Assembly: GCA_017537345.1 (NCBI GenBank)
Contig: JAFYKY010000005.1
Location: 248,001-312,000 of the forward strand
DNA length: 64,000 nucleotides
Direction of reading: 5' to 3'
From: Clostridia bacterium
GTDB taxonomy: Bacteria; Bacillota; Clostridia; Oscillospirales; CAG-382
The notes below the pieces were generated by a model that did no database searches, was not told where the DNA came from, and saw only the letters and a program-made list of their open reading frames with translations. This document shows positions 29,441 through 41,928 of the stretch, one piece after another. The position numbers and the translations under genes are program-made. Within the stretch, counting starts at the first letter, position 1. Every line of letters starts with the position of its first letter.

Positions 29441-30385
29441 ATGAACAAAATCACAATCGTTGGAACCGGCAGCGTAGGTTCTACAATCGCTTACACACTT
29501 ACGGTATCCGGTCTTGCTTCCGAGATCGTTATGATCGACATCAACGGAGAAAAAGCAATGGGCGAAGCTCTGGATATTCGCCAAGGAACTCCTTTCTGCA
29601 GTTCTTGCTCCCTTTACGCAGGCAGCTATGCCGATGCGGTAAATTCCAATATCGTAATCATCACCTCCGGCGTTGGCAGAAAGCCCGGTCAATCAAGACT
29701 TGATCTCGCTCAGATCAACGTCAATATTACCAAGACGATCATTCCCGAAATCACTAAATACGCTCCCGATGCAACTTATATTATCGTGAGCAACCCTGTT
29801 GATATACTCACTTACACCTTCTGCAAGTATTCCGGACTTCCCCAGGAACGCATTATCGGTTCCGGTACCATTCTCGATACCGCACGTCTTCGTTCCAGAC
29901 TTTCCGAATACTATTCCATCAACCAGCAGAACGTACACGCATACGTACTGGGCGAACACGGCGATTCCTGCTTTATTCCCTGGTCTATCGCAAACATCTC
30001 CAACGTTCCCATTCAGGATTACGGCAAGTCCGTTAAGCTTAAGGACTTCCAGTTCCCCGAACTCAACTATGAAGAAGTTGAAGAATACGTTAAGAAATCC
30101 GGTGCACGTATCATAAGCCGTAAGGGCGCGACCTTCTATGCGGTTTCCATTTCCGTATGCCACATAGTTAAGTGCCTGCTCAGCGGTATGGATACCACTC
30201 TCACCGTTTCCACTATGCTTGACGGCGAATACGGTATAAGCGACGTGTGCCTGAGCCTTCTCAACGTTGTCGGCGCAAAGGGCGCTCACAACAAGGTTAT
30301 TATTCCTCTTAACGATGCCGAGCTCAAAGCACTTCACCACAGCGCGGATACCCTGAAAGATATCATCCGCAGCGTTAATCTGTAA
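29441..30385 (+). CDS. Malate/lactate dehydrogenase family protein, probably malate dehydrogenase
   Basis: A 314-residue LDH/MDH-superfamily enzyme with NAD motif GTGSVGST (8-15), catalytic His173 (GEHGDS), and Arg149 and Arg86 for substrate carboxylate binding. The overall sequence is LDH-like. The specificity residue just before KPG is Arg80, the equivalent of position 102, where classical lactate dehydrogenases have Gln and malate dehydrogenases have Arg. With fumarase 21 bases downstream and fumarate reductase later in the operon, reduction of oxaloacetate to malate with NADH is the better reading, but lactate activity is not excluded. Confidence 0.75.
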   Translation: MNKITIVGTGSVGSTIAYTLTVSGLASEIVMIDINGEKAMGEALDIRQGTPFCSSCSLYAGSYADAVNSNIVIITSGVGRKPGQSRLDLAQINVNITKTIIPEITKYAPDATYIIVSNPVDILTYTFCKYSGLPQERIIGSGTILDTARLRSRLSEYYSINQQNVHAYVLGEHGDSCFIPWSIANISNVPIQDYGKSVKLKDFQFPELNYEEVEEYVKKSGARIISRKGATFYAVSISVCHIVKCLLSGMDTTLTVSTMLDGEYGISDVCLSLLNVVGAKGAHNKVIIPLNDAELKALHHSADTLKDIIRSVNL

Positions 30386-30406
30386 TAAAGTACGAGGGTA
30401 AACACT

Positions 30407-31783
30407 ATGGAATACCGTATTGAACATGACTCTATGGGCGAGGTAAAGGTACCCGCCGATAAACTCTGGGGCGCGCAGACCGAAAGAAGCCACGAAAACT
30501 TCGAGATCGGTGTGAATATCGAAACTATGCCCCGTGAAATAACCCACGCGTTCGGAATACTCAAAAAGGCTGCGGCTATGACCAACGCCGTTCTCCGTCC
30601 CGAGAAAATGACCGAAGAAAAGCTTAATGCAATCTCTCTCGCTTGCGACGAGGTTATAAGCGGTTCTTTGAACGATCATTTCCCTCTCGTTGTTTGGCAG
30701 ACCGGCTCCGGTACACAGTCCAATATGAACGTTAACGAAGTTGTTGCAAACCGCGGTAACATTATCGCAGGTAAAAAGCTTCTTCACCCCAATGACGATA
30801 TCAATATGAGCCAGTCCTCCAACGATACCTTCCCCACCGCTATGCATATCGCGGCTGTTTCCGTTATCGAGGACAAGCTTATTCCCGCCGCAGAAACTCT
30901 TATCGCTACCTTTGTACGTCTTGAAAAAGAAAACGAAGGCATTGTAAAGAGCGGACGTACCCACCTTCAGGACGCTACTCCCATTACCTTCAGTCAGGAG
31001 ATAAGCGGTTGGAGAAGCAGTCTTGAACGTGACGTAGAGCTTCTTAATGTTGCTGTTAAGCCTCTTTACGAGCTGGCATTGGGCGGCACCGCAGTAGGTA
31101 CCGGACTCAACGCTCCCAAGGGCTTTTCCGAACTGGTTGCAGAAAACGTAGGCAAGCTTACCGGCAAGCCTTTCGTTACCGCAGCAAACAAGTTCCACGC
31201 TCTTACCTCCAAGGATGAATTGGTATTCGCTCACGGCGCTATCAAGGCTCTCGCTTGCGATATGATGAAGATCGCAAACGATATCCGTTGGCTGGCAAGC
31301 GGTCCCAGAGACGGTTTGGGTGAAATCTTTATTCCCGAAAACGAACCCGGTTCCTCTATAATGCCCGGTAAGGTTAACCCCACCCAGTGCGAAGCTGTTA
31401 CCATGGTAGCTGTTCAGGTAATGGGTAATGACGTTGCAGTTGGTATGGCAGCTTCTCAGGGCAACTTTGAGCTTAACGTATTTATGCCCGTTTGCATTTA
31501 CAACTTCCTTCAGTCCGGCAGATTGTTGGCAGAGGCTATTCTTTCCTTCAACAAGAACTGCGCTGTTGGAATTAAGGCAAACAAGGAAAAGATGCACCAC
31601 AATCTTCACAACTCTCTTATGCTGGTTACCGCTCTTAACCCCTATATCGGTTACGAAAATGCGGCAAAGACTGCAAAGAAGGCGTTTAAAGACAATATCA
31701 CTCTCAAAGAAGCCTGCGTAGAGCTGGGCTTCCTTACCCCTGAAAAATTTGACGAGGTATTCCACCCCGAAAAAATGGTTTAA
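30407..31783 (+). CDS. fumC: Class II fumarate hydratase
   Basis: Reversible hydration of fumarate to malate; here most likely run as malate to fumarate. 458 residues with the superfamily signature GSSIMPGKVNP (about 316-326), the substrate-site SSNDTFPTAMH and TGSGTQSNMN motifs, and HLQDATP with the catalytic His. Class II enzymes need no iron-sulfur cluster. Second gene of the operon, 21 bases after the dehydrogenase and 13 bases before hdrB. Confidence 0.95.
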   Translation: MEYRIEHDSMGEVKVPADKLWGAQTERSHENFEIGVNIETMPREITHAFGILKKAAAMTNAVLRPEKMTEEKLNAISLACDEVISGSLNDHFPLVVWQTGSGTQSNMNVNEVVANRGNIIAGKKLLHPNDDINMSQSSNDTFPTAMHIAAVSVIEDKLIPAAETLIATFVRLEKENEGIVKSGRTHLQDATPITFSQEISGWRSSLERDVELLNVAVKPLYELALGGTAVGTGLNAPKGFSELVAENVGKLTGKPFVTAANKFHALTSKDELVFAHGAIKALACDMMKIANDIRWLASGPRDGLGEIFIPENEPGSSIMPGKVNPTQCEAVTMVAVQVMGNDVAVGMAASQGNFELNVFMPVCIYNFLQSGRLLAEAILSFNKNCAVGIKANKEKMHHNLHNSLMLVTALNPYIGYENAAKTAKKAFKDNITLKEACVELGFLTPEKFDEVFHPEKMV

Positions 31784-40537: not shown

Positions 40538-40554
40538 AAGGATTTTTAGTAGTT

Positions 40555-41928
40555 ATGGCGAATAAAGACAAAAAAGCAGGCAGGATTATTGCGGCATCAA
40601 TAATTGCTGTCCTGATAATAGCTTTGGCATTTTGGTGCGTGTTCAGCGCTGCCAAGGCGAAGGGCGTATTGAGTACGCTTAAGGTATCTTCTACCACCGC
40701 GTTGCTTGCCGGAATTTTCTTGGTATCTGTTTTGGGATATCTGCTTGGCAGTATTACAATAAAAGGAATCAACCTCGGTACCGCGGGCGTTTTCCTGGTA
40801 GCCATTTTATTTGGTTATCTTTGCACACTCAGCGGACTTGAAAACATTCCTGTTTTGGGAAATTTCTTTATTAAAAATTCTTCCGCAACCCTTAATACTT
40901 ATTATTCCAAGATCGTTCAAAATATCGGATTGGTATTGTTCGTGGCTTCCGTTGGCTTTATTGCAGGCCCCAATTTCTTTAAGAACTTAAAGAAAAACGC
41001 AAAATCCTTTGTACTTTTGGGCGCTACAATAATTACTAGCGGCGCGGTTGTTGCTGCTTTGTTCTCTCTCATTCCCGGTATCGGCCCCGAATTTGCCGCC
41101 GGCGTTCTTTCCGGCGCGCTTACGTCTACCCCCGGTTTTTCTGCCGCACTTGAAGCTGCGGAAAGTATAGGTACATCTACCGATATAATTACACTTGGCT
41201 ATGCTATTGCATATCCCTTTGGTGTTATAGGCGTAGTTCTGTTTGTTCAGCTTATGCCCAAGATCCTTAAGGCAGATATGAACAAAGAAAGAGAACTGCT
41301 CAAGATCGGCTCAGAGCAAAAAAAACAACTGCCTTCCAGCCTGTTTGAAATAGATTCCTTTGGTCTCGCGCCTTTTGCTATGGCAGTAATTCTGGGTCTG
41401 TTGTTGGGAAGCGTCACCATCCCACTTACGGGAAGCGGATATAACGGCCCTTGTTTCAGTCTCGGTACTACCGGCGGTATTCTCATTATGTGCCTTGTTT
41501 TCGGTCATTTCGGTCATATGGGTAAGATCTCTCTTCGGGTTCCGGACAGAACAGCAAAGGTATTTCGTGAATTTGGCCTTATGCTGTTTCTCATTGGTGC
41601 AGGTGTAAGTGGCGGCGTTTCCTTGGTAAGCGAAATAAGCAAGAGCGAGCTTGGCGCAATGATCGTTGTATACGGTCTTGTGGGCGGTGCTATTTTGACT
41701 ATCATTCCTATGGTGGTTGGATTCATTATTTCCAAGTACGTACTGAAGCTAAGCTTGCTTAACACACTCGGTTCCATTACCGGCGGTATGACCTCTACCC
41801 CTGCTCTTGGCACTCTTATAAATACTGCAAAGACAGATGACGTTGCTTCTGCATACGCTTCTACATATCCTATTGCTTTAGTATTGGTCGTTCTGGCTTC
41901 CCAGCTTATCATTACTTTGTTGGGCTGA
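40555..41928 (+). CDS. AspT/YidE-family dicarboxylate transporter, candidate succinate exporter
   Basis: A 457-residue membrane protein with two Asp-Al_Ex-type repeats, each with a STPG- or STPA-type motif (ALTSTPGFSAALE and GMTSTPALG), and about ten or more helices. No RCK/TrkA-C domains are between the repeats. The family includes the aspartate:alanine exchanger AspT and SucE1, a succinate exporter of Corynebacterium. As the last gene of an operon that would make succinate, succinate export or aspartate/succinate exchange is the natural guess. Confidence 0.82.
   Translation: MANKDKKAGRIIAASIIAVLIIALAFWCVFSAAKAKGVLSTLKVSSTTALLAGIFLVSVLGYLLGSITIKGINLGTAGVFLVAILFGYLCTLSGLENIPVLGNFFIKNSSATLNTYYSKIVQNIGLVLFVASVGFIAGPNFFKNLKKNAKSFVLLGATIITSGAVVAALFSLIPGIGPEFAAGVLSGALTSTPGFSAALEAAESIGTSTDIITLGYAIAYPFGVIGVVLFVQLMPKILKADMNKERELLKIGSEQKKQLPSSLFEIDSFGLAPFAMAVILGLLLGSVTIPLTGSGYNGPCFSLGTTGGILIMCLVFGHFGHMGKISLRVPDRTAKVFREFGLMLFLIGAGVSGGVSLVSEISKSELGAMIVVYGLVGGAILTIIPMVVGFIISKYVLKLSLLNTLGSITGGMTSTPALGTLINTAKTDDVASAYASTYPIALVLVVLASQLIITLLG

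Follow-up and report, generated by a model that had tools for sequence, protein, structure and literature searches.

In a 64,000-nucleotide stretch of the genome of a gut member of the Clostridia (assembly GCA_017537345.1, contig JAFYKY010000005.1, positions 248,001 to 312,000 of the forward strand; hereafter the window), a twelve-gene operon carries a Flx-Hdr gene set together with genes for a TfrA-like fumarate reductase of two subunits. Its products probably work as one soluble enzyme, driven by reduced nicotinamide adenine dinucleotide (NADH), that would bifurcate electrons between ferredoxin and fumarate, with HdrB passing electrons to FrdB. From sequence we infer that the subunits form a complex, that HdrB passes electrons directly to FrdB, and that the enzyme bifurcates. 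The proposal draws on gene content and linkage, on conserved cluster-ligand and catalytic residues, on a clade of HdrB proteins associated with Frd, and on the 17 genomes that carry the operon, where no UbiA match was found in 16/17 and no Sdh-type cytochrome in 17/17.

A Flx-Hdr set followed by fumarate reductase genes

The operon occupies positions 29441-41928 of the + strand in the order mdh-fumC-hdrB-hdrC-hdrA-flxD-flxC-flxB-flxA-frdB-frdA-transporter, with intergenic gaps of -17 to +21 bases. Its genes are as follows.

29441-30385, +, mdh, predicted malate dehydrogenase of the lactate dehydrogenase fold (Ldh_1_N/C; NCBIfam L-lactate dehydrogenase over cut-off)
30407-31783, +, fumC, class II fumarase (TIGR00979, 711.2 bits, cut-off 664.75)
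31797-32585, +, hdrB, two CCG domains (PF02754 twice), ten Cys for two predicted noncubane [4Fe-4S] clusters
32569-32967, +, hdrC, ferredoxin-like relay with two [4Fe-4S] motifs (profile matches)
32986-34980, +, hdrA, flavin adenine dinucleotide (FAD) and iron-sulfur subunit, predicted bifurcation site (match to solved HdrA 5odc_A)
34971-35405, +, flxD, mvhD-like subunit (PF02662, 184.7 bits)
35393-36370, +, flxC, iron-sulfur subunit whose C-terminal part matches FdhB of Hdr-formate dehydrogenase complexes
36376-37404, +, flxB, iron-sulfur subunit, sulfhydrogenase-beta/AsrA-like (PF17179; NF040829 below cut-off; 9nez_B)
37397-38230, +, flxA, NAD(P)H/FAD module with a [2Fe-2S] site, predicted NADH entry (PF00175, PF00970, PF10418)
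38245-38919, +, frdB, one [2Fe-2S] and two [4Fe-4S] motifs (PF13510, Fer4 families)
38934-40537, +, frdA, TfrA-like fumarate reductase flavoprotein (open reading frames 38934-39968 and 39989-40537; frame broken here)
40555-41928, +, AspT/YidE-family transporter, predicted dicarboxylate exporter (PF06826, 206.1 bits; TIGR01625)

Open reading frames, profile matches and gap lengths bear out the composition and the twelve-gene, single-strand layout that a sequence-only reading of this DNA had described. The same reading called the operon unbroken, and this fails at frdA, which stands in the assembly as two open reading frames in different frames: the first stops early, at 39968, and homologous sequence resumes out of frame, reaching as far as 40537. 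Of 80 named relatives, 75 hold both halves and 75/75 are in frame, so the break probably reflects either a recent mutation or a fault of the assembly. The genome yielded no other complete FAD_binding_2 flavoprotein, the remaining matches spanning at most 48 of 414 profile positions.

The Flx-Hdr set is contiguous in the window and comprises hdrABC and flxABCD, including the NAD(P)H/FAD module and the MvhD-like subunit. Residues 3-661 of HdrA align with the methanogen HdrA 5odc_A at 679 bits, a full-length match that covers the FAD domain and the iron-sulfur insertions, and NCBIfam HdrA models match it with scores below cut-off. HdrB matches solved HdrB chains in a sequence search of the PDB, and its ten noncubane-cluster cysteines, which we take to be the ligands of two such clusters, are conserved in 41/41 rows. 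A separate observation concerns dozens of the listed HdrA homologues from the phylum, which contain one in-frame TGA, likely encoding selenocysteine; this codon is present neither in the window HdrA nor in the listed Frd-linked HdrA rows.

Intact relatives of FrdA score best with the TfrA profile, at 344.6 bits (cut-off 718) in the locus L100 and 350 bits in L170, ahead of SdhA/FrdA (290 and 273 bits) and NadB (263 and 278 bits). Wherever the alignment has letters (39 or 40 of 40 rows), the equivalents of the catalytic residues, His/Arg/His/Arg, are kept. The position of the histidine that binds FAD covalently is Asn in 40/40 relatives, and the FAD is predicted to be held non-covalently. The C-terminal flavoprotein domain PF02910 was not found in FrdA at E 1e-5. 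The AlphaFold model of FrdA from L100 has a predicted template modelling score (pTM) of 0.82 and a mean predicted local distance difference test (pLDDT) of 77.0, and active-site loops are among the stretches modelled with low confidence. The fold resembles E. coli FrdA at a template modelling score of 0.66, a match that repeats what the sequence shows.

In FrdB, an alignment of 21 rows shows twelve invariant motif cysteines and one nearly invariant, arranged as one [2Fe-2S] motif and two CxxCxxCxxxC motifs. Because of the latter, two [4Fe-4S] clusters are predicted, unlike the [4Fe-4S]/[3Fe-4S] pair of quinone-linked enzymes. A profile search found no CCG domain in FrdB, and hdrB is a separate gene. 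The start of frdB is most likely 38245 rather than 38227, since the listed relatives, 120 in number, almost all have a length near 224 amino acids. The AlphaFold model of FrdB is poor (pTM 0.42, mean pLDDT 61.7).

Linkage of frdBA to Flx-Hdr among relatives

Named loci were scanned for the best 80 of 539 confirmed places, a sample with little bearing on distant lineages. As far as the contigs reach, flx and hdr genes precede frdBA in the same order in 80/80 of them; where the contig reaches far enough, flxA is present in 76/76, flxD in 69/69, hdrA in 60/60 and hdrB in 59/59. The remaining genes of the operon are kept less strictly (fumC 56/59, mdh 40/57, transporter 51/62).

Among 119 kin genomes, the source included, FrdB was found in 28, HdrA in 31 and both in 27, always on one contig. 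The exceptions are one genome with FrdB only (G457) and four with HdrA only (G401, G447, G448, G451), all of them less than 90% complete. When the 78 near-complete kin genomes are considered, again with the source, HdrA and FrdB occur in an identical set of 16. Operons that routinely lack frdBA, which the sequence-only reading had regarded as telling against it, are thus not the pattern among kin, and Flx-Hdr without Frd is common in the wider phylum: at 20/20 HdrA loci picked away from frd, flx genes are present and frd is absent. These twenty loci came from the upper part of a ranked list and are not a random draw.

In a phylum sample of 398 genomes, with three HdrA candidates scored per genome, FrdB was found in 39 and HdrA in 147. 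HdrA accompanies FrdB in 35/39 FrdB-positive genomes and occurs in 112/359 of the FrdB-negative ones, a Fisher odds ratio of 19 that is confounded by kinship.

A distinct HdrB accompanies fumarate reductase

In methanogens, HdrB is the subunit that meets the acceptor. Distant Frd-linked loci have HdrB proteins 39-47% identical to that of the window, and identity is 42-49% in six frd-unlinked loci from FrdB-positive genomes, which have the order hdrBCA; it falls to 31-37% in the other fourteen unlinked loci, where hdrC lies ahead of hdrB wherever both were seen. Identity to the window HdrA is 56-60% across all twenty frd-unlinked loci.

Phylogenies of HdrB and HdrA were built with 8 of the 17 order-level loci, including the window and avoiding near-copies. 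A branch of length 1.11 with support 100/100 parts 26 Frd-associated HdrB, among them that of the window, from 15 others: 11 from genomes without an FrdB match, 3 unlinked ones from FrdB-positive genomes, and the second HdrB of one Frd locus (L095). The equivalent split in the HdrA tree has a branch length of 0.057 and a Shimodaira-Hasegawa-like approximate likelihood ratio test (SH-aLRT) value of 92. A long HdrB branch beside a short HdrA branch is what contact of HdrB, rather than HdrA, with the acceptor would produce; the split supports HdrB as the acceptor-facing subunit, short of proof, and could help to tell from sequence which Flx-Hdr complexes deliver electrons to fumarate.

An SdhE-type origin of HdrB was considered, but the scores of the NCBIfam SdhE and HdrB profiles overlap over 15 HdrB (9 Frd-associated, 6 from genomes without an FrdB match) and were given no weight; the window HdrB scores 144.4 bits with SdhE and 146.6 bits with HdrB, both below cut-off.

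Modularity in distant loci and evidence against the proposed enzyme

Besides the source genome, the phylum sample holds 38 FrdB-positive genomes, from which 24 distant FrdB loci were fetched. FrdA adjoins FrdB in 24/24; hdrB is carried by 12/24, and 9/24 also have hdrA, flxD and flxC. Four other arrangements occur: frdBA-hdrBCA-flxDC; hdrCBA-flxDCBA-frdBA; hdrCB with several hdrA-like stretches, flxD and frdBA; and hdrCB-frdBA alone. The last label covers L189, L193 and L197, and for L193 (G276), where the FrdB contig has 3800 bases, hdrCB is assumed from kinship with G252. In L079, L084, L086 and L087 the fetched stretch ends at flxC, and the gene order is seen as far as that gene. Such variants, both hdrCB-frdBA alone and the rearranged operons, make the HdrB-FrdB contact directly testable. 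The multi-HdrA architecture is unusual in itself: in L091, L092, L094 and L095, several consecutive hdrA-like stretches lie between hdrCB and flxD-frdBA.

Several results weigh against the proposed enzyme. No hdrA or hdrB lies within the fetched stretch at 12/24 distant FrdBA loci; L083 and L097, with weak hdrC-like matches to other iron-sulfur proteins, are counted here as Hdr-less. In addition, 4/39 FrdB-positive genomes of the phylum have no HdrA match at E 1e-50. Because of these two counts, this FrdB can draw electrons elsewhere, and FrdBA is probably a head that accepts electrons from several sources, Flx-Hdr among them. The neighbours identified by test at the Hdr-less loci include malic enzyme (L077) and pyruvate carboxylase (L080), besides those of L083, L096 and L097 given below; at the remaining loci they were judged by eye. 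The link between Frd and Flx-Hdr is real but modular: the hdrBCA-flxDCBA-frdBA linkage that the sequence-only reading proposed to search for is conserved in kin, and at half of the distant loci neither hdrA nor hdrB lies in the fetched stretch.

The HdrB split, for its part, may mark two ancient lineages and not an adaptation to FrdB, because it coincides with gene order among the unlinked loci (hdrBCA versus hdrCBA), and the SdhE and HdrB profile scores give no separation of the two HdrB types. The scores of the NCBIfam Hdr and Tfr models fall under their cut-offs, and frdA is broken in this very assembly. At the genome level, one of the 17 operon genomes has a UbiA match, 5/17 lack RnfC over cut-off, and for the route to oxaloacetate the model of adenosine triphosphate (ATP)-dependent phosphoenolpyruvate carboxykinase (PEPCK) finds nothing in 11/17, the source included.

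At three of the Hdr-less loci, FrdBA stands beside a NapC-type cytochrome (L096), a b561-like iron-sulfur protein (L097), or flavin mononucleotide and iron-sulfur proteins (L083). These are probable membrane-linked versions.

Quinones, ferredoxin partners and the supply of fumarate

A UbiA-family prenyltransferase has no match in 16/17 operon genomes, including the source (other quinone genes were not searched); in FrdBA genomes of other contexts it is present in 9/10. An Sdh_cyt cytochrome was found in 0/17 operon genomes (other anchor families were not searched), and no membrane anchor gene was found in the operon. The earlier description of a quinone-free, anchor-free fumarate reductase holds on these counts. 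Partners for ferredoxin are widespread, with RnfC over cut-off in 12/17 operon genomes, FeFe hydrogenase in 17/17 and pyruvate:ferredoxin oxidoreductase in 13/17; the source has all three.

The product of the first gene exceeds the NCBIfam cut-off for L-lactate dehydrogenase, yet has Arg at the specificity position in 14/15 rows, the motif not being found in the fifteenth. Because of this residue, presumably the mark of a malate dehydrogenase, it is more likely a malate dehydrogenase than an L-lactate dehydrogenase. As annotated by profile, the gene at 29441-30385 is easily mistaken for the latter. The transporter is 46-61% identical to that of the window among order-level relatives with one in the fetched stretch.

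ATP-dependent PEPCK was found in 6/17 operon genomes. A PEPCK gene adjoins the operon at L073:3085-4491 (G411:C1) and at G436:C39:25550-26959, where together with malate dehydrogenase, fumarase and Frd it would complete a set leading from phosphoenolpyruvate to succinate.

Proposed mechanism and alternatives

In the proposed mechanism, NADH would enter at FlxA and its electrons would pass via FlxB, FlxC and FlxD to HdrA. The HdrA flavin would send one electron to ferredoxin and one to HdrC-HdrB-FrdB-FrdA, twice per fumarate, such that two NADH would be split into one electron pair for ferredoxin and one pair reducing fumarate to succinate. Fumarate would come from malate dehydrogenase and fumarase, succinate would leave the cell through the AspT-family protein, and Rnf and hydrogenases would re-oxidise ferredoxin. 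HdrB would take the role of the HdrB-like half of TfrB in thiol:fumarate reductase, in a system driven by NADH instead of thiols. If so, succinate formation would supply reduced ferredoxin, and through it additional ATP or hydrogen, with a bearing on hydrogen balance in the rumen and on succinate production.

Ferredoxin was placed at -420 to -500 mV. For 2 NADH, fumarate and 2 ferredoxin, the calculated energetics come to about -33 to -49 kJ/mol. The two other potentials used, +33 mV and -320 mV, also appear in PMC5861303.

A broader scheme is offered tentatively, at somewhat less than an even chance. Flx-Hdr may universally act as the core that splits NADH, onto which interchangeable acceptor plugs fit, and the Frd-specific HdrB may be one such plug, its noncubane clusters conducting electrons into FrdB purely as wires, without any sulfur chemistry; FrdB and HdrB would then amount to a split TfrB, and quinone-free gut Clostridia would gain ferredoxin, and via Rnf an ion gradient, per fumarate.

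The best-surviving alternative, which we regard as unlikely, invokes two enzymes and a thiol shuttle: Flx-Hdr would bifurcate to ferredoxin and a small disulfide, and the resulting thiol would reduce FrdAB with no stable complex formed. It would account for the ten cysteines of both noncubane clusters being retained by HdrB in 41/41 rows, for TfrA, the flavoprotein of thiol:fumarate reductase, being the best profile of FrdA, and for the existence of FrdBA unlinked to Flx-Hdr. FrdB, however, has no detected CCG domain for thiol oxidation, linkage and co-occurrence are near-absolute among kin, and HdrB differs between Frd-associated and other loci.

Slightly less favoured still is a soluble NADH:fumarate reductase in which HdrA merely relays electrons and ferredoxin is not reduced. 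Taken by itself, the NADH-fumarate couple releases much energy (-68 kJ/mol), and bifurcation by HdrA follows from no calculation made here. Against this stand the full-length, 679-bit match of HdrA to a bifurcating methanogen HdrA and the presence of HdrA, FlxD and HdrC, which a simple NADH route would render superfluous. In Pseudoclostridium thermosuccinogenes, moreover, the loss of succinate under H2 was read by the authors of PMC7282089 as fitting a link to ferredoxin.

Operation in reverse, with succinate oxidised by NAD+ and reduced ferredoxin in a confurcation, is improbable. It finds some favour in distant loci where FrdBA lies beside malic enzyme (L077), fumarase-like genes (L079, L084) or other genes that by eye resemble those of the tricarboxylic acid cycle. 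The Asn that replaces the covalent-FAD His in 40/40 relatives argues for the opposite direction; in E. coli FrdA, losing the covalent FAD bond spares fumarate reduction, not succinate oxidation. The malate dehydrogenase and putative exporter of the operon, and the adjoining PEPCK of G411 and G436, also fit succinate formation. Equally improbable is that FrdA acts on another enoate, or that the pair is a relative of L-aspartate oxidase: NadB reaches 263 bits against 290 for SdhA/FrdA in L100 and slightly more than it in L170 (278 versus 273), but in each of the two TfrA outscores them (345 and 350), the catalytic set is conserved, the operon includes fumarase and malate dehydrogenase, and FrdA has FrdB as its partner.

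Relation to known systems

The Flx-Hdr-Frd idea is already known, having been proposed in 2019-2020 for P. thermosuccinogenes. A 2019 preprint by Koendjbiharie and van Kranenburg, cited in PMC7282089, reportedly concerns, by its title, a fumarate reductase potentially involved in bifurcation. PMC7282089 (2020) itself describes a 'succinate operon' that comprises a fumarase gene, seven genes for Flx-Hdr, a pair of Frd genes and what may be a succinate transporter, assumes that fumarate reductase is coupled to ferredoxin reduction, and gives roughly 4-fold upregulation of the operon under CO2 limitation, not significant for all subunits. By locus-tag ranges, fumarase, the seven Flx-Hdr genes, the two Frd genes and the transporter follow the order of the window, the comparison being one of gene order, and the same coupling of succinate formation to ferredoxin is proposed. 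The window differs in its front mdh, which is not listed for that operon, in its gut Clostridia host and in its broken frdA frame. The present analysis adds breadth, strict co-occurrence, quinone-free genomes, a predicted non-covalent FAD and the HdrB split.

The claim that no enzyme of this composition has been characterised stands in one part: no purified Flx-Hdr-Frd enzyme was found in open-access literature, where PMC7282089 was the sole source found for the idea. It does not stand as regards novelty, the same operon and mechanism having been put forward there for P. thermosuccinogenes. No solved Frd-Hdr complex was found in PDB searches with HdrA, HdrB, FlxC, FlxB, FrdB (best 60 of 132) and FrdA (best 60 of 65). 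For gut or rumen Clostridia without quinones and Sdh-type cytochromes, no characterised NADH-driven fumarate reductase was found in open-access literature.

The FlxABCD-HdrABC system of Desulfovibrio vulgaris (reportedly the subject of Ramos 2015) has in one set the same NAD(P)H-FAD module, two iron-sulfur subunits, MvhD-like subunit and HdrABC. Its partner acceptor is probably a disulfide, whereas the window set has frdBA appended, and the window HdrB type is distinct from the HdrB at Flx-Hdr loci in genomes lacking FrdB. A 2014 study of Desulfovibrio alaskensis is said, by its title, to join fumarate reduction, Hdr-Flox and Rnf physiologically.

The thiol:fumarate reductase of methanogens, TfrAB, is likewise close, TfrA being the best profile, with scores below its cut-off, for FrdA of the window type. 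Its TfrB joins FrdB-like and HdrB-like parts that in the window are separate genes, frdB and hdrB, and its donors are the coenzyme M and coenzyme B thiols, whereas the predicted donor here is NADH. Quinol:fumarate reductase (complex II) has the FrdA fold and catalytic residues in common. Unlike complex II, the window system has no anchor found, no covalent-FAD His, no PF02910 at E 1e-5 and no quinone prenyltransferase found in the genome. A Tfr-Mvh-Hdr gene cluster of Cand. Celaenobacter, for which PMC8542988 infers a functional link, brings together fumarase, thiol:fumarate reductase and Hdr genes as in the window; it uses H2-driven Mvh, in contrast to the Flx of the window, predicted to be NADH-driven.

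Boundaries, mosaicism and genomic setting

Two candidate signals bound the operon.

29365-29392, +, promoter-like site before the operon, 11/12 consensus matches with a 16-base spacer and TG preceding the second hexamer (consensus match only)
41943-41965, +, terminator-like hairpin after the operon, 9 pairs, loop of 5 and a T-rich tail, the longest such hairpin

Promoter-like sites overall occur at chance number (16 against a shuffle mean of 16.8), and terminator-like sites are modestly above chance (22 against 15.2 in shuffles, standard deviation 3.8); the latter counts neither show nor exclude that the operon has 'no internal terminator', as the sequence-only reading had it.

The source genome comprises 2.02 Mb in 25 contigs and is 97.65% complete. 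Within the best 80 of 539 places, the closest named loci come from assemblies of Clostridia, Oscillospiraceae and Ruminococcus, most of them sampled from guts, those of ruminants and chickens among others. Set against L060, the closest relative, the operon has a mosaic character: DNA identity is 94-96% in mdh and fumC, 98.9-100% from hdrB to flxA, 96% in frdB, 89-93% in frdA and 61% in the transporter, returning to 98.9% in the next gene. Because frdA and the transporter diverge while hdrB-flxA and the next gene remain near 99%, the comparison suggests that the 3' end (38245-41928) was exchanged, through recombination with a swap of the transporter. Genes that by eye look like the SPFH/stomatin type flank the operon on both sides, at 27848-29149 on the - strand and at 42045-43118 on the + strand.

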